This document shows positions 48,673-60,856 of a DNA stretch of 64,000 nt, piece after piece (within the stretch, counting starts at the first letter, position 1; every line of letters starts with the position of its first letter). The position numbers and the translations under genes are program-made. The DNA comes from Methanobacteriota archaeon (GTDB taxonomy: Archaea > Halobacteriota > Methanomicrobia > Methanomicrobiales > Methanospirillaceae). The DNA lies in contig JAKPPB010000063.1 of NCBI GenBank assembly GCA_029547605.1, forward strand, positions 62,001-126,000, written 5' to 3'. The notes below the pieces were generated by a model. It saw only the letters and a list, made by a program, of their open reading frames with translations. It did no database searches and was not told the DNA's origin.

Positions 48673-48686
48673 ACCCTTGAGTGTAT

Positions 48687-50054
48687 ATGATTATCAGGCA
48701 GTTTTTCATCCCCGGCATAGCCCACAGTTCTTACATCGTTGCAGGGAGCAGGACCTGTGCGGTTGTCGATCCTTCCCGCGACGTGGGTCGGTACATTTCT
48801 GCTGCTCGCGAGATGGGGCTTCGGATCACGCATATCCTGGAGACCCACCTCCACGCGGATTTCATATCCGGCCACCTTGACCTTGCGGAGGCAACCGGCG
48901 CAGAGATCTATGCGCCAAAATCCGGTAAGTGTGAATTCCCCCATGTTGCACTTACTGAAGGCGACGAATTACCGCTTGAGCACATCCATTTCAGGATAAT
49001 TGAGACGGCCGGCCACACTCCCGAGCACATCTCATATATTGCGACCGATACGTCCCGCGGCGAGACCCCCGTTGCCCTCTTCTGCGGCGATACTCTCTTT
49101 GTCGGAGATGTAGGCCGTCCTGACCTTTTTCCCGGGAAAGCCCAGGACCTCGCATCGGCTCTCTACGACAACCTCCATACCAAGATCATGACACTCCCCG
49201 ATGAGTGCGAGGTTTACCCCGCCCATGGGATGGGCTCGCTCTGCGGGAGGGCGATGGCAGCGAAGAGGACGAGCACCGTCGGTTACGAGAAGAAGTACAA
49301 CTACGCCCTCCGGATAAGTGAGCGGGGAGAGTTCATCCGCGCCCTTACATCCGATATGCCGGCTGCGCCGGATCACTTCGCCCGCTGTTCAGAGATCAAC
49401 CGGGCAGGACCTGCCCTGATGAGAACACTCCCGACACCTTCCCCTGTCGATCCGAAAACCTTCTCAGAGTGGATCCGCAGGAATGATGCGGTTATCCTCG
49501 ATGCCCGGAGTTACCCGGCATTCTCGGGGTTACACATCCCTGGTTCGTGGCACATCGACCTTTCCGGAAACTTCGCCACGCAGGCGGGATGGATCCTCCC
49601 GCCAGGGAGGGATATCCTCCTTGTTGTCGAGTCAAGGGACCAGGCAGAAGAGGCGGCACTCCAGCTCCGCCGCGTCGGATTTGACCGGGTGCCGGCATTC
49701 CTCGAGGGTGGCTTGCTTGCGTGGGGGTCATCGAACCTTCCGATAAGCCGTGTGCCGGTGATCTCGGCAAAGGAGGCCCATTCCCTTGTCAGTTCAGGCG
49801 ATGCGTTACTTGTTGATGTCAGGTCATGGGAGGAATGGGAGGCCGGCCATCCGGTTGGGGCTGTGCATATCCCATGGCACGACCTCAGGACTCGATATAC
49901 CGAGCTTGATCCCGCCAGGCATACCATCGTGATGTGCAAAGGTGGACAGAGAGGGAGCATCGCGGCAAGCATCCTGAAGATGCATGGCTTTGAGAAGGTC
50001 TCGAACCTCGCGGGGGGATTCCTCGCGTACCAGAGGGCGGGTTTTACGCCATGA
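48687..50054 (+). CDS. Persulfide dioxygenase-rhodanese fusion (CstB-like)
   Basis: About 455 residues in three parts. The metallo-beta-lactamase domain (1-245) has ETHLHADFISGH (His54, His56, Asp58), GHTPEH (His110) and CGDTLF (Asp135); Phe59 replaces the second-metal His, as expected for mononuclear-iron persulfide dioxygenases. A middle rhodanese-like domain (about 255-350) has no catalytic Cys. The last rhodanese domain has Cys417 in VMCKGGQRG. The layout equals that of CstB, which oxidises persulfides and makes thiosulfate. ATG 48687 is preferred over GTG 48681. Downstream are two YedE genes. Confidence 0.85.
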   Translation: MIIRQFFIPGIAHSSYIVAGSRTCAVVDPSRDVGRYISAAREMGLRITHILETHLHADFISGHLDLAEATGAEIYAPKSGKCEFPHVALTEGDELPLEHIHFRIIETAGHTPEHISYIATDTSRGETPVALFCGDTLFVGDVGRPDLFPGKAQDLASALYDNLHTKIMTLPDECEVYPAHGMGSLCGRAMAAKRTSTVGYEKKYNYALRISERGEFIRALTSDMPAAPDHFARCSEINRAGPALMRTLPTPSPVDPKTFSEWIRRNDAVILDARSYPAFSGLHIPGSWHIDLSGNFATQAGWILPPGRDILLVVESRDQAEEAALQLRRVGFDRVPAFLEGGLLAWGSSNLPISRVPVISAKEAHSLVSSGDALLVDVRSWEEWEAGHPVGAVHIPWHDLRTRYTELDPARHTIVMCKGGQRGSIAASILKMHGFEKVSNLAGGFLAYQRAGFTP

Positions 50055-50106
50055 TGGGAGATATTATCATAGGATAACCCAATCCTCCCTGGAACGGAGA
50101 TCGTGC

Positions 50107-50640
50107 ATGTTCACATGGCTTTCAATGGCGACCTGGTCGCCCTATGTCGTCGGCGCGGGGATTGGAGTGCTCGTGTGGGTGGCATTCCTCCTCTCTGACC
50201 GCCCCCTCGGGGCATCAACCGCATATGCGAAGACTGCCGGGATGGTTGAATTGGCAGTCTCGAAGAAAAAGGCAACGGCGATGCCTTACTACAGGAAGTT
50301 CACGCCGACCGTTGACTGGCAGTGGATGATAGTTGTTGGTATAATTATCGGAGGGTTCCTCTCTGCCTGGATCGGAGGAACCTTTTCGGTGTTTATTGTC
50401 CCCCCCCTCTTTGCAGGAGTTTTCTCTGCGGATCCGCCTCTGCGGATAGCGGTGGCGCTCATCGGGGGGATCCTGATGGGGCTCGGGGCCAGGTGGGCCG
50501 GCGGCTGCACATCGGGACATGGTATATCCGGGACCCTTCAGCTTTCAGTTGCAAGCTGGATAGCGGTGATCTGCTTCTTTGCCGGGGGGATCCTCGTTGC
50601 CGGCATGATCTTTGGGTTCCCGTTCCTTTCGGGGGGCTGA
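50107..50640 (+). CDS. YedE/YeeE-type sulfur transport protein, half 1
   Basis: 177 residues. Hydrophobic helices begin at VVGAGIGVLVWVAFLLSD and continue through MIVVGIIIGGFLSAWIGG; the signature GARWAGGCTSGHGISGT carries the conserved Cys of DUF395/YeeE proteins, which relay thiosulfate or persulfide sulfur across the membrane. It lies 52 bases after the rhodanese fusion and three before the second half. Confidence 0.85.
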   Translation: MFTWLSMATWSPYVVGAGIGVLVWVAFLLSDRPLGASTAYAKTAGMVELAVSKKKATAMPYYRKFTPTVDWQWMIVVGIIIGGFLSAWIGGTFSVFIVPPLFAGVFSADPPLRIAVALIGGILMGLGARWAGGCTSGHGISGTLQLSVASWIAVICFFAGGILVAGMIFGFPFLSGG

Positions 50641-50643
50641 ACC

Positions 50644-51201
50644 ATGGCACTGGAGAAGATCAGGTCGAATTCACACGTGCAGATTGTACTCGGGCTTCTC
50701 ATCGGCATCGCGTTTGGCTTTCTCCTGCAAAAGGGTGAGGTGACAGAGTACGGCGTGATAATCGGACAGCTCCTCCTTTCCGATTTCACCGTCGTGAAGG
50801 TGATGCTTTCAGCGATCCTCGTGGGGATGATTGGGGTCCATGTGATGAAGGCAAAGGGGCTTGTCCGCCTCCACTGCAAGGCGGGATCGATTGGTGCAAC
50901 GGTTGTGGGGGGATTGATCTTTGGCGCCGGGTTTGCCGTTCTCGGGTATTGTCCAGGGACTGCGGCCGGAGCATTTGGATCTGGAGCCCTGGATGCAGCA
51001 GTGGGAATGGCAGGGATAGTGATTGGTGCAGGTCTTTTTGCCCGCCTCTTCCCGTATCTTGAGCGAAAGATCCTGAACAAAGGAGTATTTCCCGCGGAGA
51101 CAATCCCCGACATGCTGGGTGTCCGTCCGGCGTGGGTGGTCGTCGTGGTCGGGATCTTCATCGTCGGGGTCCTTACCGTTCTTGCAGAACTCGGCTTATG
51201 A
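50644..51201 (+). CDS. YedE/YeeE-type sulfur transport protein, half 2
   Basis: 185 residues with about four to five helices. VQIVLGLLIGIAFGFLLQKG opens it and GFAVLGYCPGTAAGAFGSGA holds the conserved Cys of the second YedE repeat. With the previous gene it probably forms a two-chain sulfur permease (PmpA/PmpB-like). ATG 50644 starts three bases after the stop of half 1. Confidence 0.85.
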   Translation: MALEKIRSNSHVQIVLGLLIGIAFGFLLQKGEVTEYGVIIGQLLLSDFTVVKVMLSAILVGMIGVHVMKAKGLVRLHCKAGSIGATVVGGLIFGAGFAVLGYCPGTAAGAFGSGALDAAVGMAGIVIGAGLFARLFPYLERKILNKGVFPAETIPDMLGVRPAWVVVVVGIFIVGVLTVLAELGL

Positions 51202-51230: not shown

Positions 51231-51439
51231 AAAAGGCTGTATGAGAGAGGGAATCTCAATTCAACCTAAAATATACGGGACCATGTTTCCATCCATTATG
51301 AAGACCGCTTCTTCGGCTTTCCTGAAGAGGTGTGCATTTAAGAATAAAGGAAAAGGATTCAGCCATCCCCTTTTTTTCCGCTATTAGTCCAGTGAGTGGG
51401 CATCAGCACACCCTCCAGAAAAGGTTTAAAGGGGCCGGG

Positions 51440-51880
51440 ATGGAGTACTCAGGTATGGCACAGCCTCCGGGGGCAGGTGAAGGCATACAGCCAAGAAAGA
51501 GCGTACAGATCCCCCTCTTTTACCAGGTGCTGGTGAGCATGATCTTTGTCGCGGTCATCCCGGTCCTCCTCCTCTCGGTCGTCTCCATGGGAGGAACGGC
51601 CAGCATAGTAGCCACGATTGGCACCCCTGCCACGGTGCTCCTTCTCACCATAGGCACTGTCCTCCTGGTCCTCCTCTGGAGCTACTTTGTGGCGTCACAC
51701 ATCACCCGGCCGATCGTAGAGCTCTCTTCCATCGCCACAAGGATCAGCAGGGGATATCTGCCGGACAGGGAGATGGAGATCAGGTCACATGACGAGATCG
51801 GGGAACTCGTGGCCGCATTCAACCGGATGATCAATACCTACCGGATTCTGGATACCCTTGCAAAGGAAGAGCCGGAGTGA
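51440..51880 (+). CDS. HAMP-domain membrane protein without kinase or sensor domain
   Basis: 146 residues. Two transmembrane helices (VLVSMIFVAVIPVLLLSVV and VLLLTIGTVLLVLLWSYFV) are joined by a loop of only about 15 residues, then a HAMP domain (SHITRPIVELSSIATRISRG to DEIGELVAAFNRMI), and the chain ends. There is no kinase, cyclase or methyl-accepting region. It opens an operon of Roadblock and receiver proteins and is probably the membrane anchor or transmitter of that module. ATG 51455 is an alternative start; GTTTAAAGG at 51424-51432 is TATA-like. Confidence 0.8.
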   Translation: MEYSGMAQPPGAGEGIQPRKSVQIPLFYQVLVSMIFVAVIPVLLLSVVSMGGTASIVATIGTPATVLLLTIGTVLLVLLWSYFVASHITRPIVELSSIATRISRGYLPDREMEIRSHDEIGELVAAFNRMINTYRILDTLAKEEPE

Positions 51881-51917
51881 GCGCCTGTCCAACCTGGTGA
51901 AGGGAGGAACTGATCGG

Positions 51918-52265
51918 ATGCTGAAGAACGAACTCCAGCACCTCTTCTCACTCGAAGGGGTGAGGATGGCAATCGTCATCGACTCTGAGGGCCGGGTCGC
52001 CGATGAGATGGGGGCGTCGAATATTCGAGGAGAGCAGCTTGCGGCGGTAGTGGCATTTGTGATGGCAGAGTCCAAAGCAATGGCCACACGCCTTGGCCAG
52101 GAGCAGATCTCGATGGTCTTCGTTGAGTTCCGGGAACTGGCATTGATCTCTGTTCCCCTCGTCAAGGGGTATTTCCTGGTCGTGATCACCGAGGTCGGGG
52201 CAAATGTAGGCCAGGTCAGTTATGAAATGAAGAAGCACCAGGATATGATCTCGTCGTTCCTATGA
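51918..52265 (+). CDS. Roadblock/LC7 domain protein
   Basis: 115 residues covering one Roadblock fold: LKNELQHLFSLEGVRMAIVI, SEGRVADEMGASNIRGEQLA, ISMVFVEFRELALISVPLV and FLVVITEVGANVGQVSYEM. Roadblock proteins dimerise and regulate small GTPases (MglB-like), but no GTPase gene is present here. ATG 51918 has GGGAGGAAC upstream and lies 37 bases past the HAMP gene. It overlaps the next gene by four bases. Confidence 0.8.
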   Translation: MLKNELQHLFSLEGVRMAIVIDSEGRVADEMGASNIRGEQLAAVVAFVMAESKAMATRLGQEQISMVFVEFRELALISVPLVKGYFLVVITEVGANVGQVSYEMKKHQDMISSFL

Positions 52266-53140
52266 CCGGATCTCTGCCCGCCGGGTTTTTTGTTGGGGAG
52301 ATGCAGGCACCGTTCAAGTGGATTCTCATCCACGCGGCACGTTTCCAGGGGATGATCCGCGTGCTCACGCCGGATGGGGAGGGGCATGTCCTCGTTCGGA
52401 AGGGCAATCCGATGGGCTGCAGCTTCCGCAGGGGGAAGGAGGAACTCAAAGGAGAGGCCGCGTATCGTCATATACTCAGCTTTCCCGTGGTCGACCTCTC
52501 CATCTACCGTTACACGAGCGAGGAGATGGAGGAGGCCACCCATCTCTTGATGGAATACGGCTCTCTATGCACCAGCAGTGACAAGAAACCGGGGGACAAA
52601 CCCCCAAGAGCAGATCACTTCTTCCCTCAAACCACGGGGGAACGGGAACCGGCTTCTGTGAATGCCCCCGGTCCGAGGGTTTTACCTCCCCTTCCCAAGA
52701 GGAAACTTCCACCCCGGGAGGCTGTTGCTGAGAGCACCGAAGATGCTGCCGAAGAGACCCCCGTTGTTCTCCCGAGCGGCCTCGATCTCGAGGACCTCGC
52801 CTATCTTCTCCTGGGCCGGATCCTCAGGCTCCCGGGAGTCCAGGCAGTCTCCATATTCGGGAGAGGAAAATCGGTGCTCTCCATTGGGAACATGGAACTT
52901 GATTCCCTTGTAGTCCTTGCCGAGGACATGCTTCGTGCCGCAACAGAGATCAGCACCGTCATGCGTACCGGCTCGTTCGTCCACCTGACACTGCAGATCC
53001 CTTCAGGGAAGGTGATTGTCGCCCCCTATTTCAATGAGTACCTCTGTATCCTCACCAGCCCCGGAGTCAACCTGGGCCAGATACGCAAGATCTTGAAGGA
53101 AATCCCTGATATGGCCGAAGAAGGGAGGGAGGTCGCCTGA
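52262..53140 (+). CDS. PATAN/DUF4388-like and Roadblock/LC7 two-domain protein
   Basis: 292 residues. Residues 1-95 (FKWILIHAARFQGMIRVLTP, GHVLVRKGNPMGCSFRRG, EAAYRHILSFPVVDLSIYRY) resemble DUF4388/PATAN domains of bacterial and archaeal regulators. A low-complexity Pro/Glu linker (about 100-165) follows, then a Roadblock domain (RILRLPGVQAVSIFGRGKSV to LCILTSPGVNLGQIRKIL). It starts on the upstream stop and overlaps the receiver gene by one base. It could bind the smaller Roadblock protein to make a hetero-oligomer. Confidence 0.72.
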   Translation: MTGSLPAGFFVGEMQAPFKWILIHAARFQGMIRVLTPDGEGHVLVRKGNPMGCSFRRGKEELKGEAAYRHILSFPVVDLSIYRYTSEEMEEATHLLMEYGSLCTSSDKKPGDKPPRADHFFPQTTGEREPASVNAPGPRVLPPLPKRKLPPREAVAESTEDAAEETPVVLPSGLDLEDLAYLLLGRILRLPGVQAVSIFGRGKSVLSIGNMELDSLVVLAEDMLRAATEISTVMRTGSFVHLTLQIPSGKVIVAPYFNEYLCILTSPGVNLGQIRKILKEIPDMAEEGREVA

Positions 53141-53802
53141 TGTACCGGATCCTCATTGTTGACGATAACCCCGCCATTACTGATATCCTGGCAAGGATGG
53201 TGAGGCACGAGGGCCTGGAGGCGATCGAGGCACACTCGGGCGAGGAGGCCCTTGCAGTGATCCGGCAAAAGCACCCCGACCTCGTATTCCTCGATATCCT
53301 CATGGAGCCCATGGACGGGTGGGAGACGCTCTCCCGTATCAAGCAGGATGAGGGGACTGCAGATATCCCGGTGATGATGATCACGGCCAAGAGCCTCGAT
53401 CCCGCAGAGGTCCAGGCCCATACCGCGCAGTTCGAGGACTATATCCAGAAGCCTATCACGAGGAGAGATCTCTGCAGGGTTATAAGGCGCTATTTCAAAA
53501 AGGAGTCTGAGATTGGGGACGAGGTGGAGAGGGCCCGTATTTCGGGGGTTGACGCCGGGCTCCTGGATGAGTTCCGGCGAATCTCGAGGGACATCGAGGT
53601 ACACCAGAGGCTTCTCCTGCTGCTCTGGAACGTGTTCCGCACGAGTGAGGAGGGAGACCCCCGGAAAGGGGACCTTCTTGAGGCTATCGGGCGCATGGAG
53701 ACCGCACAGAATGCGATGAGAGCACGTCACCAGGAGATCAGAAAGGTGATTCGAATGCACCTGAAGGGAGAAGAGCGCGGGGGAGATCCCGGCAGAGAAT
53801 GA
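53140..53802 (+). CDS. Response regulator with unknown C-terminal helical domain
   Basis: 220 residues. The receiver domain (1-120) is complete: acidic pocket Asp8-Asp9, phosphoacceptor Asp52 (LVFLDILMEP), Thr82 (MMITAKS) and Lys104 (YIQKPIT). Residues 130-215 are a helical, charged region (LLDEFRRISRDIEVHQRLLL, AQNAMRARHQEIRKVIRMHL) without a DNA-binding helix-turn-helix that I can recognise. It probably acts by protein contacts with the Roadblock partners. No histidine kinase is in this operon. It overlaps the protease gene by four bases. Confidence 0.85.
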   Translation: MYRILIVDDNPAITDILARMVRHEGLEAIEAHSGEEALAVIRQKHPDLVFLDILMEPMDGWETLSRIKQDEGTADIPVMMITAKSLDPAEVQAHTAQFEDYIQKPITRRDLCRVIRRYFKKESEIGDEVERARISGVDAGLLDEFRRISRDIEVHQRLLLLLWNVFRTSEEGDPRKGDLLEAIGRMETAQNAMRARHQEIRKVIRMHLKGEERGGDPGRE

Positions 53803-54302
53803 GCGTCAAGTCATGCCCTGTTCGCGTTTGTCATCGCGTGAGGAACATGCTTCTTGGCATCGGGAACCCCCTCAGGAGGGATGACGGTGTGGGGAATTAC
53901 GTGGCCTCCTGTTTTCGCGCCCAGGGATGGAGAACGGCAGACTGCGGGACTGCGCCTGAGAACTTCACAGGCTTTGTAAGGCGACACCATCCCGATCTCC
54001 TTGTTCTTGTAGACGCTGCAGATATGGGCGTTGCCCCCGGGGAGTGTATGATCATCCCGAAGGAGAGGATCAGGGATGTGGGTATCGGGACCCACCAGCT
54101 CCCCCTCGACTTTTTCATCGGTTTTGTGGAGGACAGTGCCGGAGCGATCATCCTCATTGGGATCCAGCCAATGGTGGTAGGTACAGGTGAGGGACTGAGT
54201 CCCCAGGTGCAGGAGGGTGCAGACCGACTCATCCGGGTTCTGGAGAAGGGGGATGTTGGGGCGATCCCGGTGCTTGGGGAAGAACCGGAAGCATCAGGAT
54301 GA
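53799..54302 (+). CDS. Hydrogenase maturation protease (HycI/HyaD family)
   Basis: 167 residues. MLLGIGNPLRRDDGVGNYVA is the conserved N-terminus with the nickel-sensing Asp; LLVLVDAADMGVAPGECMII and GTHQLPLDFFIGFV (His) follow. HycI-type proteases cut the C-terminal extension of NiFe-hydrogenase large subunits after nickel insertion. It starts on the receiver stop and converges on mbhN; MbhL has a 33-residue tail after its last Cys, the likely substrate. An internal ATG at 53847 begins the conserved part. Confidence 0.85.
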   Translation: MSVKSCPVRVCHRVRNMLLGIGNPLRRDDGVGNYVASCFRAQGWRTADCGTAPENFTGFVRRHHPDLLVLVDAADMGVAPGECMIIPKERIRDVGIGTHQLPLDFFIGFVEDSAGAIILIGIQPMVVGTGEGLSPQVQEGADRLIRVLEKGDVGAIPVLGEEPEASG

Positions 54303-54407: not shown

Positions 54408-54809
54408 TCACTCCACGATCAGGTTCTCCGAGTACCTGTCCTCATCCGCAAGGAGAAATTCAGCGCTCATGGAAAGGCTGCTTTTGGGACAGATGCTGGT
54501 GCACTGCGAACAGAAGATGCACTGGCCAACCCAGATGCGTATCTTTTTTGTCGGCAGAAGTTCGATGGCATGCGAGGGGCATATCTTAGTGCAAAGGCCG
54601 CAGCCGATGCAGGAATCACGCGCATAGGAGATTTTGCCCCTGAACTCCGGAGGCGTGGGTACCGGGGGGGTGAGTTGCGCCCTTCCCGCCGCCACGTCAC
54701 GTAAAAATCCCGTAACCGTGGGCGGAAGGTACTTGGCAGGGAACCGGTTTGTGGCGGGCTCGCGGAAGAGCTGGCGGACGAGTTCGGGGAAGAGCGGGAG
54801 AAGCCTCAT
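54408..54809 (-). CDS. mbhN: Mbh hydrogenase ferredoxin-like subunit MbhN
   Basis: 133 residues. Two [4Fe-4S] motifs, CIGCGLCTKICPSHAIEL and CIFCSQCTSICP, form an 8Fe ferredoxin domain after an N-terminal arm like NuoI. It passes electrons from ferredoxin to the proximal cluster in MbhJ. It is the last gene of the operon; its ATG overlaps the mbhM stop. Confidence 0.9.
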   Translation of the reverse strand: MRLLPLFPELVRQLFREPATNRFPAKYLPPTVTGFLRDVAAGRAQLTPPVPTPPEFRGKISYARDSCIGCGLCTKICPSHAIELLPTKKIRIWVGQCIFCSQCTSICPKSSLSMSAEFLLADEDRYSENLIVE

Positions 54810-55825
54810 GACCCTACCCCCACGAGTGCAGGAAGCGCGGCATCGGCCATCAGGAGGATGAGGCCGAAGAGGCCGATTACCGAGAGAGAACGCCAGTAGA
54901 TTGAGACCACCTGAGTGATCCGGAACCTCGCCATTCCCACCCTTACCAAAGTGACGGCAAAGAAGAGCACGACGATTGCCTTTGCGAGGAAGAAGAGGAG
55001 ATCCGCGGGAAGGGCCAGCCAGGGGGGCATCGCGAGGAATCCCGAGAGGTTCCACGGGAAGAAGATCGCAACGATCACGGCCGCGAGGATAAGTGTCTTG
55101 ACTCCCTGGGCGAGGTAGAACATGGCAAGGTTTCTGCCTGAGTACTCCACCAGCAACCCGCCTGCAAGCTCGGTCTCCGCCTCCTGGGTGTCGAAGGGGA
55201 TGCGGGAGAGCTCGGCGGGGGTGACTACTGCGAGCACGAGGAGGAGAATGAAGGCCCCAATAAGCCCCAGGGGCCCGACAACGGTCCATATCGGGGTTGC
55301 AGCGATCGTCGCGAGTGCAAACGGCGAGGAGAGTCCGGCCGCCCCGATACGCCACGCAACCCCGATCACGACAATCGCGAGAGGAAACTCGTAGGCGATC
55401 ATGGTGACCATCTCTCGCTGTGCACCTACTGTTGCGTACGGTGAACCGGATGCAAAACCCCCTGCGACCATCGCGAGTGCGGGCACGGTCAGGAGATACA
55501 TCACCAGTACAAGGTCCCCATACATCCCGAGGATTGGAAGGATGCTTCCCACCGGGAGGTAGAAGAGGATCAGGATGCTCGATGCCAGCGCGATCACCGG
55601 GGCAAGGTTAAAAATGCCGGAAATGGCGTTTTCAGGGACAACGTTCTCTTTCTGGAGAAGCTTTACAATGTCGATGAACGGCTGGCGGATCGGCGGCCCG
55701 ATCCTGGCCTGCATGTGGGCGGCGAGCTTCCGGTCAATACCGAGGAGGAAGAGCCCGCCTGCCAGGGCAAAGAGCGAAAGGAATATGCCCCACCCCAGGA
55801 GGACGGCAATTCCGGCCGGGGTCAT
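54806..55825 (-). CDS. mbhM: Mbh hydrogenase membrane anchor subunit MbhM (NuoH-like)
   Basis: 339 residues, about eight helices. ARIGPPIRQPFIDIVKLLQK is the conserved NuoH loop near the hydrogenase module and TPAELSRIPFDTQEAETELA the second. It anchors the catalytic arm and links it to ion translocation. Overlaps mbhL by four bases. Confidence 0.92.
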   Translation of the reverse strand: MTPAGIAVLLGWGIFLSLFALAGGLFLLGIDRKLAAHMQARIGPPIRQPFIDIVKLLQKENVVPENAISGIFNLAPVIALASSILILFYLPVGSILPILGMYGDLVLVMYLLTVPALAMVAGGFASGSPYATVGAQREMVTMIAYEFPLAIVVIGVAWRIGAAGLSSPFALATIAATPIWTVVGPLGLIGAFILLLVLAVVTPAELSRIPFDTQEAETELAGGLLVEYSGRNLAMFYLAQGVKTLILAAVIVAIFFPWNLSGFLAMPPWLALPADLLFFLAKAIVVLFFAVTLVRVGMARFRITQVVSIYWRSLSVIGLFGLILLMADAALPALVGVGS

Positions 55826-57051
55826 CGCTGCAGCCTCCTGGTCTTCTCCACCGAGAGCCTGTGGAGGTGTTCCTTTGTGAGGATAGTCCGTATCCCGTCC
55901 TGCACAACCGCTACCCTATCGGTACATGAGAGGCATGGGTCGATGGATGCGACGATGATGGGTATGTCTGCGATCTGTTCCCCCTTGAGCATCGGTATCC
56001 ACGACATGAGATTGCTGTATGACGATGCCTTGACCTTCCACGCGGTAGGAGAATCTTTCCCGTCCATCCGGACGTAATGGAGGCATTCACCCCTTGGGGC
56101 CTCGACTCTCCCTATGGCCTCACCCTGTGCTTTCTTGCAGATCGCAAGGAGCTTCGCCAGTTTCTCTTCAGCGGTGATCGGCCCTGCCGGAATCTCGGAG
56201 AGGCATTGCCGGATTATCTGGCAGGATTGCCCCACCTCCAGCAACCTGACCACGATCCTGTCGTAGACATCGCCATGGGTCTCCCCTATGTACTGTTCGG
56301 GGAGGATGGCCCTGACATCAAGATCTCCATAGGCAGCGTATGGATAGTCCTGCCGAAGATCGACGTTGACGCCTGACGCCCGCGCAGTCGGCCCCACGGT
56401 GCATAACTCAATGGCATCCTTCCTCGTCAGAATTCCGCAATCCCTGCAGCGCATGGCGATCGTGCGGTCTTCGAGGAAGAGGTTCAGGAGCTTTTCAAGA
56501 AGCCCTTCGTATGTTGACAGGCAGGTCTCGATGATCGGGTGCTGTTCGGGAGCGATGTCCCTCCGGACGCCACCCACCTGGACAATCCCGTAATTGACAC
56601 GGTTTCCTGTAAGGTTCTCTATCACATCCATGGCCTGCTCACGCACCCTCCATGTCAGGTGCAGAAGCGAATCAAAACCGAGCTCATGAGCCGCAACACC
56701 GGCCCACAGGAGGTGGGACTGGATACGCTCGAACTCGTGGAGGATTGACCGGATGTAATCGGCACGCTCCGGGACCTGGATCTCTGCGATCTGTTCGACT
56801 GCAAGGGAAAATGAGAGGGTATGGACAACCCCGCATATACCGCAGATCCGGTCTGTGAGATGGACAATCTGCACAGGATTCCGGCGCATACCCATCCACT
56901 CGATACCCCTGTGAGTCTGCCCCGGAGCAAAGTCGACCGTCTTCACCTGCTCTCCATCCATCTCGAAAGTGAACATCACAGGTTCCTTCAGTGCAGGGTG
57001 GACCGGTCCGATCTGGACGGTATATGGTGCCTTCTTTTCATCGGGGGCCAT
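55822..57051 (-). CDS. mbhL: Mbh NiFe-hydrogenase large subunit MbhL
   Basis: 409 residues. The NiFe ligands are complete: RICGICGVVHT (Cys70, Cys73) and DPCLSCTDR (Cys373, Cys376). This separates it from the cofactor-less complex I NuoD. A 33-residue C-terminal tail follows the last Cys, to be removed by a maturation protease such as the neighbouring HycI-like enzyme. It reduces protons with electrons from ferredoxin, or the reverse. ATG 57051 has AAGGAGGACACC upstream. Confidence 0.95.
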   Translation of the reverse strand: MAPDEKKAPYTVQIGPVHPALKEPVMFTFEMDGEQVKTVDFAPGQTHRGIEWMGMRRNPVQIVHLTDRICGICGVVHTLSFSLAVEQIAEIQVPERADYIRSILHEFERIQSHLLWAGVAAHELGFDSLLHLTWRVREQAMDVIENLTGNRVNYGIVQVGGVRRDIAPEQHPIIETCLSTYEGLLEKLLNLFLEDRTIAMRCRDCGILTRKDAIELCTVGPTARASGVNVDLRQDYPYAAYGDLDVRAILPEQYIGETHGDVYDRIVVRLLEVGQSCQIIRQCLSEIPAGPITAEEKLAKLLAICKKAQGEAIGRVEAPRGECLHYVRMDGKDSPTAWKVKASSYSNLMSWIPMLKGEQIADIPIIVASIDPCLSCTDRVAVVQDGIRTILTKEHLHRLSVEKTRRLQR

Positions 57052-57052
57052 G

Positions 57053-57688
57053 TCAGGTGTCCTCCTTTGATGACTCACTGGTCTTTTTTGCTGGTTCTGC
57101 ATCGATTCCGGACACCTCTTTGATCTCAACCACTGGTGCCGGCCGGTCTTTCGGTCTCCTGGATGCCCAGAGATCCTTCACCATTCCAGGGGGTATCCCG
57201 GTTTCATCCTTCCTCCAGGGATACACCCCTGCAGGGAAATCATCGGGAAGGAAGAGGCGCCGGTTGTCCGGTATTCCGATCACCTTCACCCCGAGGAACT
57301 CTTGCTTTTCGCGTTCGCCGAACACTGCACCGGGGATAAGATCGGATATGGTAGGAATAGTAAGATCGGACTTTTGCAGTGTCACCGCGAAGGTCACCAT
57401 GTACTCGCTCTTTACTTCACCATACTGAATGGAGAAAATATATACGAGGCGTATCGAATCCCCAAGGTCATTTGCACCTATGACAGAGAGGTGCGGGAAC
57501 CGGATCCCAATCAGGATCTCGATGGCGGGCCTGAGCAGTTCCTTGTCGATCTCGAACCAGATAGTGTAGTGGGGATTTTTCTTCTTCCCCTCGCGCCGTT
57601 CAGAGATGCGGGCTTCCCGAATCCCGCTTCCAATGCGAGCCGTGAACCGTTCCACCACCTGTTCAGGAGAGAGGATAGGTACTGTCAT
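57053..57688 (-). CDS. mbhK: Mbh hydrogenase subunit MbhK (NuoC-like)
   Basis: 211 residues. EREKQEFLGVKVIGIPDNRR, FLPDDFPAGVYPWRKDE and the beta-rich N-terminal half match the 30-kDa NuoC-type subunit of group 4 hydrogenases. It is not cofactor-binding and stabilises MbhJ-MbhL. It ends one base before mbhL. Confidence 0.88.
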   Translation of the reverse strand: MTVPILSPEQVVERFTARIGSGIREARISERREGKKKNPHYTIWFEIDKELLRPAIEILIGIRFPHLSVIGANDLGDSIRLVYIFSIQYGEVKSEYMVTFAVTLQKSDLTIPTISDLIPGAVFGEREKQEFLGVKVIGIPDNRRLFLPDDFPAGVYPWRKDETGIPPGMVKDLWASRRPKDRPAPVVEIKEVSGIDAEPAKKTSESSKEDT

Positions 57689-58119
57689 GCTCTTTCCCCC
57701 TGGAGCCTTTCGAGTTTTGCGAGGGCGGTGACCACTCCGTGGATGATCGCCTCCGGCCGGGGTGGACAGCCCGGAACATACACGTCTACAGGGATGACCT
57801 CGTCAACCGGCCCTTCCAGGTTGTAGGAGTCAAAGAACACGCCCCCCGAGATCCCGCAGGCTCCGATGCACATCACCAGTTTTGGGTCAGGCATCTGGGC
57901 GTATACCCGGAGCAGCCGGTCCTTCATCTTGTGGACCACCGGCCCGGTGATGAGCATCACGTCGGCATGCCGGGGGCTCCCCACCAGTTTTATGCCGAAC
58001 CGCTCCGGGTCGTACCTGGGGGTGATGGTCGCCACGATCTCGATCTCGCAGCCGTTGCATGACCCCGAGTTGAAATGGTAGACCCAGAGGGAGCGGTTGA
58101 ACGAGGAGTTCAATTTCAT
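57685..58119 (-). CDS. mbhJ: Mbh hydrogenase small subunit MbhJ (NuoB-like)
   Basis: 144 residues. The proximal [4Fe-4S] ligands Cys21 and Cys24 (GSCNGCEIE), Cys88 (GACGISGG) and Cys118 (VPGCPPRPE) are all present. It transfers electrons from MbhN to the NiFe centre. Overlaps mbhK and mbhI by four bases each. Confidence 0.94.
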   Translation of the reverse strand: MKLNSSFNRSLWVYHFNSGSCNGCEIEIVATITPRYDPERFGIKLVGSPRHADVMLITGPVVHKMKDRLLRVYAQMPDPKLVMCIGACGISGGVFFDSYNLEGPVDEVIPVDVYVPGCPPRPEAIIHGVVTALAKLERLQGERA

Positions 58120-58466
58120 GGGAAGATCACCACCAGAAAGAGGAAGAGCGCGGTTATCCCGAGATACCAGAGGATATAGTCGTGAAGGTTCCCCGAATGA
58201 AGCGGGACCAGGCGGTCGTAGTACCCCCTGAGCGCCTCGAGGTATCCCCAGTACAGGTTCCCTGCCCTGACATGGACCTCTCCCTTCATCTCGGGCTCTT
58301 TGTTCCCAGAAATGAAGGGCTCTGCCTGCGCGGTGCCGGGCTTGTACCCCTTCTCACCCATCGAGTAGATGAGCCAGGCGATAATGAATGCAACAAGGAG
58401 GCCGAGCAGCCATGCCAGCGGGTTCCAGTATCCGGCCCCAGTCAGGAGTGTTGAGGTCGGGTCCAT
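58116..58466 (-). CDS. mbhI: Mbh hydrogenase subunit MbhI
   Basis: 116 residues. Two hydrophobic helices, PLAWLLGLLVAFIIAWLIYS near the N-terminus and YLGITALFLFLVVIFP at the end, bracket a soluble middle. Its place between mbhH and mbhJ matches Pyrococcus MbhI, which bridges the antiporter-like and hydrogenase modules. ATG 58466 has GGAGGTG upstream. Confidence 0.82.
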   Translation of the reverse strand: MDPTSTLLTGAGYWNPLAWLLGLLVAFIIAWLIYSMGEKGYKPGTAQAEPFISGNKEPEMKGEVHVRAGNLYWGYLEALRGYYDRLVPLHSGNLHDYILWYLGITALFLFLVVIFP

Positions 58467-58470
58467 CGTA

Positions 58471-60045
58471 TCAGACACCTCCCAGCACTGCGGCAACATA
58501 GGCTCCCTGGTCCACCAGGGCATGGGCCGCAGGGGCAATCAGGCTCTCCACGACAATGCCCGGGAAGAGGCCGAACAGTATTACCACGACAGCAAGGATC
58601 CCCATGCCTGCAAGCATCGGCATCGGAGCCTCTTTTACTTCCGAATACTCGGGGAGTGCGGGCCCCATGAAGATGGAATGGAAGACCTTGACGAACGACG
58701 CGAGGGTCAGGATACTCACCACCATCGCGATCACCGCAAGCAACGGGTTGAAGACGAAGACGGACTCGTAGATCATGATTTTTGAGGCAAACCCATTGAA
58801 GGGTGGAATCCCGGCAATGGCCAGTGCTCCTATCACGAAGAAGACCATCGTCCACTTCATCGAGTGGCCGAGGCCACCCATCCTGTTCAGGTTGTAGGTC
58901 CCAAGGCGGAGAAAAATCGCCCCCGCGGTGAGGAAGAGGAGCCCCTTGTACATCGCATGGTTGATGATGTGGAAGATCCCTCCTTCCATGGCCATGTACC
59001 CGAATGCGTCGAGAAGTGACTGGTTCCCGAGCACCGCAAGCCCGACTCCCACCCCGAGAAGCATGTATCCTGTCTGGGATACGGCATGGTAGGCCATCAG
59101 GCGTTTCACGTTCTTCTGGGGGATCGCCATCGTCACCCCTACAACCATCGAGAGGACGCCGAGGATGATGATCAGCCACCCGACTGTTGCGGCGTTGAGG
59201 GTGACGTTATAGAGTGTGAAGACAGTCCTGAAGAGGCCGTAGAGACTTGCCTGGCTTGCCACCACCAGGAGTGCAGTGATGGAAGAAGGTGCCATCGAGT
59301 AGGCATCAGGAGTCCAGAAGTGCATCGGCACTGCCCCGCACTTCATCGCGAGTGCGGCGATGATCAGGACAAGGGCCACCTGGTCAAGGACCGAGAACTG
59401 CATCCTCGCGGCGATCATGGCCATGTTCAGGGCGTTGTACTGGCCGTAATATATGCCGATCGCCACGAGTATCGCAAGGGCCCCGATAGTGCTAAGGACA
59501 AAGTACTTGAGGGCTGCTTCAACCGCAACTCCCCCATCGATCCGGTATGCGATAAGGCCTGCGGATGCGAGGGAGAGGATCTCGAGGAAGACGAAGAAGT
59601 TGAAAATATCGCCGGTCGAGACCATTCCGAGTATCCCCGTGATCATCAGGAGGTAGAGAGTGTAGTAGCTCTCAAGGCCGGTGTGAGAGCGCTCGCTCGA
59701 GAGGGAGTAGACGATGATTGCGAATCCCGATATGGCGGTGATCACGAGCATCAGGGCGCTCATCGGGTCGATCTCGAAGATGATCCGGATGGGAATGCCA
59801 CCGGAATCGGGGGGGATTGCAGCAGATGCCGTGGAGGCACCAAAGACATACAGTCTGGTCCCCGCGGAATACACGTTGAGCGCGAGGATGAGTGCGATCG
59901 CGGACGTGACAGCCATCGCACCCCCCACCCAGATCGAGCGGACCGTCGATGAGATGCGGCAAATGAAAGGAGAGAGAAATGCCCCGACAAGGGGGGCGAT
60001 TATCATCAGGGCCGGGGAGTGTGTGACAATGAATGCCGGGATCAT
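58471..60045 (-). CDS. mbhH: Mbh antiporter-like ion-translocating subunit MbhH (MrpD/NuoN-like)
   Basis: 524 residues, about 14 helices. FFVFLEILSLASAGLIAYRI, AMKCGAVPMHFWTPDAYSMA and HIINHAMYKGLLFLTAGAIF are typical of MrpD/NuoM/NuoN subunits. It should move ions, coupled to hydrogenase turnover. The ATG at 60045 has AGGAGG eight bases upstream; the open frame upstream of it is not coding. Confidence 0.92.
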   Translation of the reverse strand: MIPAFIVTHSPALMIIAPLVGAFLSPFICRISSTVRSIWVGGAMAVTSAIALILALNVYSAGTRLYVFGASTASAAIPPDSGGIPIRIIFEIDPMSALMLVITAISGFAIIVYSLSSERSHTGLESYYTLYLLMITGILGMVSTGDIFNFFVFLEILSLASAGLIAYRIDGGVAVEAALKYFVLSTIGALAILVAIGIYYGQYNALNMAMIAARMQFSVLDQVALVLIIAALAMKCGAVPMHFWTPDAYSMAPSSITALLVVASQASLYGLFRTVFTLYNVTLNAATVGWLIIILGVLSMVVGVTMAIPQKNVKRLMAYHAVSQTGYMLLGVGVGLAVLGNQSLLDAFGYMAMEGGIFHIINHAMYKGLLFLTAGAIFLRLGTYNLNRMGGLGHSMKWTMVFFVIGALAIAGIPPFNGFASKIMIYESVFVFNPLLAVIAMVVSILTLASFVKVFHSIFMGPALPEYSEVKEAPMPMLAGMGILAVVVILFGLFPGIVVESLIAPAAHALVDQGAYVAAVLGGV

Positions 60046-60386
60046 TCTTTGAGCCTCCTGATCCGGTCGATGTCGATGCTCCCGTATTTCTTCCAGATAA
60101 TGATTGCAAACGAGAGGAGGAGCGCGCTCGTCGCCACCCCGATCACGATTGAAGTGAGGGTGAGTGCCTGTGGCGTGGGAAGCACCATTGTTGCCGGGGG
60201 TGCGTTTGTGTAGATCGGGGCAATACCGCCTTCGCGGTACCCGAGGGTAATCAAAAAGAGGTTTACCGCGGACTCCAGGATTACGATCCCGAGGAACACC
60301 TTGATCAGGTTCTTCTTGAAGACGATGATTGCAAGTGCGATGAGGATAAGTGTAACCACCGCAACGAGCGGCAGGTTCCAGAACAT
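60042..60386 (-). CDS. mbhG: Mbh antiporter-like subunit MbhG (MrpC/NuoK-like)
   Basis: 114 residues, three helices (LVAVVTLILIALAIIVFKK, VFLGIVILESAVNLFLITLG, ALTLTSIVIGVATSALLLSF). The NuoK-type Glu in ILESAVN is present. ATG 60386 has GGAGGGG upstream. Confidence 0.88.
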   Translation of the reverse strand: MFWNLPLVAVVTLILIALAIIVFKKNLIKVFLGIVILESAVNLFLITLGYREGGIAPIYTNAPPATMVLPTPQALTLTSIVIGVATSALLLSFAIIIWKKYGSIDIDRIRRLKE

Positions 60387-60388
60387 GG

Positions 60389-60856
60389 TCAGGACCCCTC
60401 CTTCGGAATACTTGAGAGCATGTAAAGGACGATGATAGCAAGACCTCCCCACACCTCGATCCCCACCGCGAGGTTCATGATGGGAATTACTCCCGCGGTG
60501 TTCAGGTCACCGGGGTTCGGACCCGACGGGATGGATTGCCCGAAGAGCAGGCCGCTGTGTGCGAGGAAGTTTGAGAAGAAAGGGGCGCCTACTGCCAGCG
60601 CGCCAATCCCGGCGCCGATGAAGATGAGGAGTCCAATCGACTCCCTGGCTTTCATCCCCACTTTCTTTATCATTGAAGTCACCTCCTCGAAGGAGTATGC
60701 AACGATGACCAGCGCAACTCCGGTTGCAACCACTGCCCCTCCCTGGAAACCCCCTCCTGGGGTGAGGTGCCCGTGCATGATCACGTAGAGGCCAAAGATA
60801 AGGATGAACGGGTAGAGGAGGTTGGCCCCCGTCCGCACGATCTTACTCATCCTCAT
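60389..60856 (-). CDS. mbhF: Mbh antiporter-like subunit MbhF (MrpB-like)
   Basis: 155 residues. [20 protein letters not shown] followed by [19 protein letters not shown] is the MrpB/MnhB signature, with four or so helices. ATG 60856 has GGGGAGGAAGAGC upstream and lies inside the end of mbhE. Confidence 0.9.

Follow-up and report, generated by a model that had tools for sequence, protein, structure and literature searches.

Roadblock proteins serve as scaffolds in nutrient sensing in eukaryotes, as in Ragulator, and in cell polarity in bacteria, as in the Mgl system. To our knowledge, little has been learned about their role in archaea outside the Asgard lineages. The family described here extends across an order of methanogens and includes an anchor in the membrane, a receiver as partner, and a hydrogenase–Roadblock gene pair that is strictly retained, thus offering concrete and testable partners. 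In the MglB/MglC–RomR system of Myxococcus xanthus, which acts with the GTPase MglA, RomR is a response regulator whose C-terminal helix binds directly, at nanomolar affinity, to the Roadblock protein MglC (PMC12719032). MglA group 4 GTPases were found in 56% of the methanogenic Euryarchaeota surveyed (PMC4316618). The response regulator output domain MetOD2 is presented in PMC5847659 as four predicted helices that possibly form a nucleic-acid-binding HTH variant.

The window, a 64,000-nucleotide stretch of an archaeal contig, contains four consecutive signalling genes that encode a HAMP protein, a stand-alone Roadblock protein (ROB), an N-domain–Roadblock protein (PATROB), and a response regulator (REC-MetOD2). 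They are followed by a hydrogenase maturation protease gene and an mbh operon (Table 1). A preliminary description had listed the four signalling genes and the protease gene, and all five are present about where it placed them. The overlaps between genes 2 and 3 and between genes 3 and 4 are real: the PATROB start overlaps the ROB stop, and the receiver start overlaps the PATROB stop. As also proposed, the cluster is devoid of kinase, GTPase, and known DNA-binding domains by Pfam, and no MglA-family GTPase is linked to the module within it. The dN/dS values between the window and two relatives are well below 1 for every part (0.03–0.26), indicating that the four genes are under purifying selection. 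The four signalling genes are real and always together.

Table 1. Positions of the module and its flanking features in the window.
Feature	Position	Strand	Evidence
Promoter-like element GAAAAGG-TTTAAA (BRE/TATA-like)	51418..51430	+	similar form in aligned Methanolinea-type copies
Kinase-less HAMP protein	51455..51880	+	Pfam HAMP E=1.8e-10; alignment
ROB, stand-alone Roadblock/LC7, 115 aa	51918..52265	+	Pfam Robl_LC7 7e-13; alignment
PATROB, N-domain and C-terminal Roadblock	52262..53140	+	weak Pfam Robl_LC7 0.0014; AlphaFold2 model; Foldseek
Response regulator REC-MetOD2	53140..53802	+	Pfam Response_reg 2.5e-27, MetOD2 3.4e-12; alignment; model
HycI-type [NiFe]-hydrogenase maturation protease	53838..54302	+	Pfam HycI 6.6e-15; TIGR00072; TIGR00142
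mbh-type membrane-bound [NiFe]-hydrogenase operon	54408..60441	-	ORFs; convergent with protease

The HAMP protein is sequentially composed of two membrane helices separated by a short outside loop, a HAMP domain, and a C-terminal tail. The tail follows the consensus N-[TSA]-Y-x-[ILV]-L-D-x-L-[AS]-[KRQ]-[ED], which is near-invariant in all 47 HAMP proteins compared across the order, and reads NTYRILDTLAKEE in the module protein. These 47 proteins end at the tail or shortly beyond, with no domain after it. We infer that the tail is the output of the protein, a docking peptide for Roadblock partners. The start of the gene, previously placed at 51440, is most likely the ATG at 51455, because the methionine encoded there is invariant in the alignment of HAMP proteins and a GAAAAGGTTTAA-type TATA-like element lies ~28 nt upstream of it. 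The element is similar in seven aligned Methanolinea-type copies and gives the module a conserved promoter-like element of its own.

ROB belongs to the Roadblock/LC7 family, scoring 48.6 bits against the Pfam Robl_LC7 cut-off of 23. PATROB scores 18.7 bits with the same model (E=0.0014), below the cut-off. In the AlphaFold2 model, PATROB folds into a compact N-terminal domain predicted with fair confidence (residues 1–101), a disordered linker, and a Roadblock domain (residues ~175–280) with the helix/strand order a-b-b-a-b-b-b-a. The overall pLDDT is 61 with a pTM of 0.44, and the N-domain alone reaches 72–91. The modeled Roadblock domain matches Ragulator p14/MP1, Asgard Roadblocks, MglC, and MglB in Foldseek searches, p14/MP1 being the best matches. 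The structure search on the predicted model confirms a Roadblock fold that is weak by sequence. The gene had been described as PATAN-like plus Roadblock, and the second half of that name stands on the weak Pfam score and the fold match. The first half is without Pfam support: the N-domain has no Pfam match, and a search for PATAN (DUF4388, PF14332) gave zero matches in the whole genome even at E=10. "PATAN-like" denotes at most a fold-level resemblance of the N-domain.

The helical output of the receiver, earlier regarded as unrecognised, corresponds to the Pfam domain MetOD2 (PF18548, E=3.4e-12). It scores 46.6 bits against a cut-off of 30.6, and the protein has the REC-MetOD2 architecture. 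The phosphorylation site is intact, with D52 as phospho-acceptor and D8, D9, D52, T82, and K104 invariant in the alignment. The closest solved structure to the receiver is 3c3m from Methanoculleus marisnigri, with 52% identity (Foldseek). The other Foldseek matches of REC-MetOD2 are mainly receivers as well; PorX, a receiver with further domains, aligns over ~200 columns with an rmsd of ~15, too loosely to identify MetOD2 with a solved fold. A phosphotransfer histidine in MetOD2 was also considered and rejected, since the single candidate residue is not conserved in the alignment.

The model of REC-MetOD2 has a pLDDT of 86 and places the MetOD2 helices at residues 108–134, 139–168, and 175–212. 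At 27–38 residues, these helices exceed the length that an HTH would lead one to expect. The other REC-MetOD2 genes of the order are preceded directly by a Roadblock gene, at a spacing of −1 to +2 nt, in 29 of 31 genomes; it is missing in genomes G026 and G036. An overlap of 1 nt is the usual spacing of these pairs (loci L039–L068), and their Roadblock gene differs from the ROB of the module. The Roadblock–receiver combination is therefore a conserved pairing that occurs in two settings. REC-MetOD2 might instead be an ordinary transcription or RNA-binding regulator with the Roadblock genes as mere neighbours, as could be expected from the helical DNA/RNA-binding module suggested in PMC5847659. 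This alternative is highly improbable, as the modeled helices do not resemble a compact HTH and a Roadblock gene directly before REC-MetOD2 across many families is not explained by neighbourhood alone. The pairing suggests that MetOD2 may be a Roadblock-interaction domain rather than an HTH.

The receivers of the module (Methanolinea and genomes G014, G151, and G152) form one clade with a support of 99/98, the program flagging long branches. A single recruitment of the receiver, in one branch, is therefore most likely. The conserved core of the module is the triad HAMP–ROB–PATROB, and homologs of the HAMP and PATROB proteins are found across Methanomicrobiales. The HAMP protein is matched at E<1e-40 in 67 of the 232 genomes of the order. 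Of 40 loci examined beyond Methanolinea, 39 show HAMP and then PATROB in the same orientation, and the 40th stops at a contig edge. ROB lies between the two in all of these loci except seven of family f5. The signalling genes therefore stay together in related genomes, a point on which the preliminary description had staked its reading. Many Methanoregulaceae triads have housekeeping neighbours (MCM, TatD, NMD3, TRM5, DFP, PPS_PS). In family f2 (genera g23 and g37), four of the five loci examined have the triad and an Mvh-like operon in divergent orientation, and most triad loci from other genera are away from any hydrogenase.

The protease is a HycI-family member, scoring 55.5 bits with PF01750 (cut-off 23) and 98.5 with TIGR00072 (cut-off 47.45). 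It falls just under the cut-off of the equivalog model TIGR00142 (111.4 against 119.1 bits). The mbh large subunit (55822–57051) is matched in relatives and to NuoD/FpoD-like models. The protease does face the mbh operon as described, the two being convergent. The reported overlap of the receiver stop with the protease start relies on an ATG at 53799 that is not conserved in relatives. An in-frame stop lies 14 codons upstream of the conserved start of the protease protein in the nearest relative, and 4–29 codons upstream in the relatives overall. From this comparison of sequences, GTG 53838 is the probable start of the protease, leaving 35 nt between it and the receiver stop. A functional tie between module and protease through gene overlap is rejected, as the overlap is not conserved.

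HAMP, ROB, PATROB, and REC-MetOD2 lie beside the protease and mbh, always in this order, in eight of 13 Methanolinea-type genomes. The remaining five retain the protease and mbh but not the module, and yeeE-like genes lie immediately upstream. These five form one clade in the ancestral-receiver tree, so that one gain or one loss in the genus is enough to explain the distribution. Genome G014, from another genus of the same family, has all four signalling genes and neither the protease nor mbh on the contig stretch examined. Among 41 genomes examined, 27 have the protease ortholog, and in about 23 of these it adjoins mbh. The protease belongs to the mbh neighbourhood and not to the module, keeping its place beside mbh with or without it. 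The linkage of the protease to the signalling genes, which the preliminary description had expected in related genomes, does not hold, the protease lying elsewhere in most lineages, and a five-gene unit kept across Methanomicrobiales is ruled out by the neighbourhoods in the genus and the order. Most genomes of the genus carry, ahead of the module or the protease, a metallo-beta-lactamase/rhodanese gene and two yeeE-like genes (window 48681–51201). In the eight module-bearing Methanolinea-type genomes, the metallo-beta-lactamase/rhodanese gene is upstream in seven, and with the two yeeE-like genes in five.

It had been proposed that HAMP, Roadblock, and receiver proteins are together tied to hydrogenase maturation. 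The idea of a membrane HAMP protein acting with Roadblock proteins and a receiver is supported in outline, and is strengthened by the order-wide triad and the separate receiver–Roadblock pairing; the link to maturation, seen in eight of 13 genomes only, is weak and is not supported. In its strongest form, the proposal would have the module devoted to Mbh, sensing membrane or redox state and controlling Mbh maturation or activity with the protease. We judge this to be quite improbable: the eight genomes in which the module adjoins protease and mbh are of one genus, and against them stand the five genomes of that genus with protease and mbh alone, the location of most triad loci of other genera, the surroundings of the four genes in G014, and the unconserved overlap. 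The place of the module beside protease and mbh is local, secondary, and specific to one Methanolinea branch.

There is strong evidence for a hydrogenase association of another kind, in which both partners differ: the hydrogenase is not Mbh, and the Roadblock pair, ROBp–PATROBp, is paralogous to that of the module. The pair is directly downstream of an Mvh-like large-subunit gene in 73 of the 76 genomes of the order carrying that gene, at a median gap of 25 nt. The three exceptions have no ROBp on the same contig, and in two of them the hydrogenase gene is incomplete. Because the two pairs are of the same family, this operon is also a point in favour of a role of the module in Mbh. The gene order is ferredoxin, a ~196-residue protein, MvhG-like, MvhA-like, ROBp, and PATROBp, for example at L155:4375-8534, and also at L172–L174, L178, L179, L182, L183, L187, L188, L190, L191, and L199–L202. 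Within the phylum, four family f14 genomes share this hydrogenase–Roadblock order. The MvhA-like subunit retains the RICGIC and DPCISC motifs. It scores 397 bits against VhuA (cut-off 800) and is therefore a relative rather than a proven F420-non-reducing hydrogenase. The ~196-residue protein was considered as a V4R domain, but one copy has no Pfam match and another matches ATC_hydrolase marginally.

Methanoregulaceae genomes gave no match to the Mvh-like hydrogenase at the threshold used, and retain ROBp–PATROBp. In the window genome, the pair is located between a MinD-like ATPase block and genes for a PilB3-like ATPase and two T2SSF proteins (L203, G000:C3). Further Methanoregulaceae loci place the pair between a MinD-like block and a pilus motor (L175–L177, L180, L181, L186, L189, and L204), and in 18 of 30 ROBp-pair loci the stretch examined includes a type IV pilus motor. 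In the literature available to us, no paper was seen to connect Roadblock proteins with the hydrogenases or pili of methanogens. Two loci (L050:10663-12181 and L203:10871-12142) encode another N-domain protein (MQLPRGTF...) and, after it, a membrane protein that by eye resembles Roadblock proteins and has no Pfam match.

The preliminary description had also suggested looking for a distant MglA-like GTPase, and a candidate exists on another contig of the genome. This fusion joins a KaiC-like protein to a Ras-type GTPase bearing a TPGQ motif (L192:829-1992, G000:C103); another KaiC-like gene precedes it, and it is the strongest MglA-like candidate encountered. Among Methanolinea genomes, matches of similar frame length turn up both where the module is present and where it is absent, so the fusion is a candidate and not a demonstrated partner. 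The Roadblock proteins could serve as GAP, GEF, or scaffold for a distant Ras-like GTPase or MinD-type ATPase, and so place or activate type IV pili or similar machines. The KaiC-like–Ras GTPase, the position of the paralogous pair between MinD-like and PilB3-like/T2SSF genes, and the resemblance of the receiver–Roadblock pairing to RomR–MglC in Myxococcus all favour such a polarity or positioning switch. We nevertheless consider it unlikely, since no gene for a GTPase, MinD, or a pilus protein adjoins the four-gene module itself, genomes that lack the module can also carry the GTPase, and family f6 has the GTPase with little or no recognisable Roadblock protein of these kinds. A wider proposal, which we regard as decidedly unlikely, is that a Methanomicrobiales Roadblock scaffold family ties H2 metabolism to cell-surface organisation. 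The Mvh-like hydrogenase would then be, or feed, an H2 sensor whose Roadblock pair controls the MinD ATPase and the type IV pilus motor, and the HAMP–Roadblock–receiver module would be a membrane, kinase-controlled branch of the same network.

As the best reading of the conserved genes of the module, we infer a membrane-tethered Roadblock scaffold of the Ragulator or MglBC kind, with a RomR-like receiver switch and with kinase and NTPase acting in trans. The HAMP protein would anchor the scaffold in the membrane and its invariant tail would dock the Roadblock partners. ROB and the Roadblock end of PATROB may build a heteromeric platform, as is the habit of the Roadblock family. D52 of REC-MetOD2 would be phosphorylated by histidine kinases encoded elsewhere, and the protein could then bind or release the platform through the helical MetOD2, switching it. 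The target of the platform would be an NTPase or membrane machine encoded elsewhere; candidates in the same genome are the KaiC-like–Ras GTPase and the MinD-type ATPase with the type IV pilus motor. In favour of the scaffold are the triad kept across the order, the near-invariant tail, the single clade of module receivers, the repeated receiver–Roadblock pairing, the Roadblock fold of PATROB, the long MetOD2 helices, the RomR–MglC precedent, the module's own promoter-like element, and purifying selection. Our confidence in this scaffold is evenly balanced, because every interaction in it is deduced from gene order and analogy. It also has to accommodate the weak sequence match and low overall model confidence of the PATROB Roadblock, the seven f5 loci without ROB between HAMP and PATROB, the cognate kinase and GTPase not being linked, and the nucleic-acid-binding HTH variant suggested for MetOD2 in PMC5847659.

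The module shares Roadblock proteins and a response regulator with a helical output with MglB/MglC–RomR of Myxococcus xanthus. However, it has no linked GTPase, contains a membrane HAMP protein, carries a Roadblock domain fused to an extra N-domain, and uses MetOD2 in place of the RomR tail. Direct binding between Roadblock protein and regulator is known for the MglA/MglB/RomR type, whereas gene pairing is what is seen here. The likeness to Ragulator/LAMTOR, with its p18 anchor and p14/MP1 heterodimer, lies in a putative membrane-anchored Roadblock heteromer. Unlike Ragulator, the module has a two-helix HAMP protein instead of the lipidated p18, is without Rag GTPases, and includes a receiver in one branch. 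The absence of a linked GTPase, the different anchor, and the different output domain indicate that the module is not a member of either system. The Streptomyces conservons (CvnA–D) similarly bring together a HAMP-containing membrane protein, a Roadblock protein, and another small protein in gene clusters (PMC4316618), but these clusters include a histidine kinase domain and a GTPase that are both absent from the module. By Pfam and architecture, the fourth gene belongs to the REC-MetOD2 response regulators; a Roadblock pairing is absent from the available part of their description (PMC5847659) and is found systematically here.
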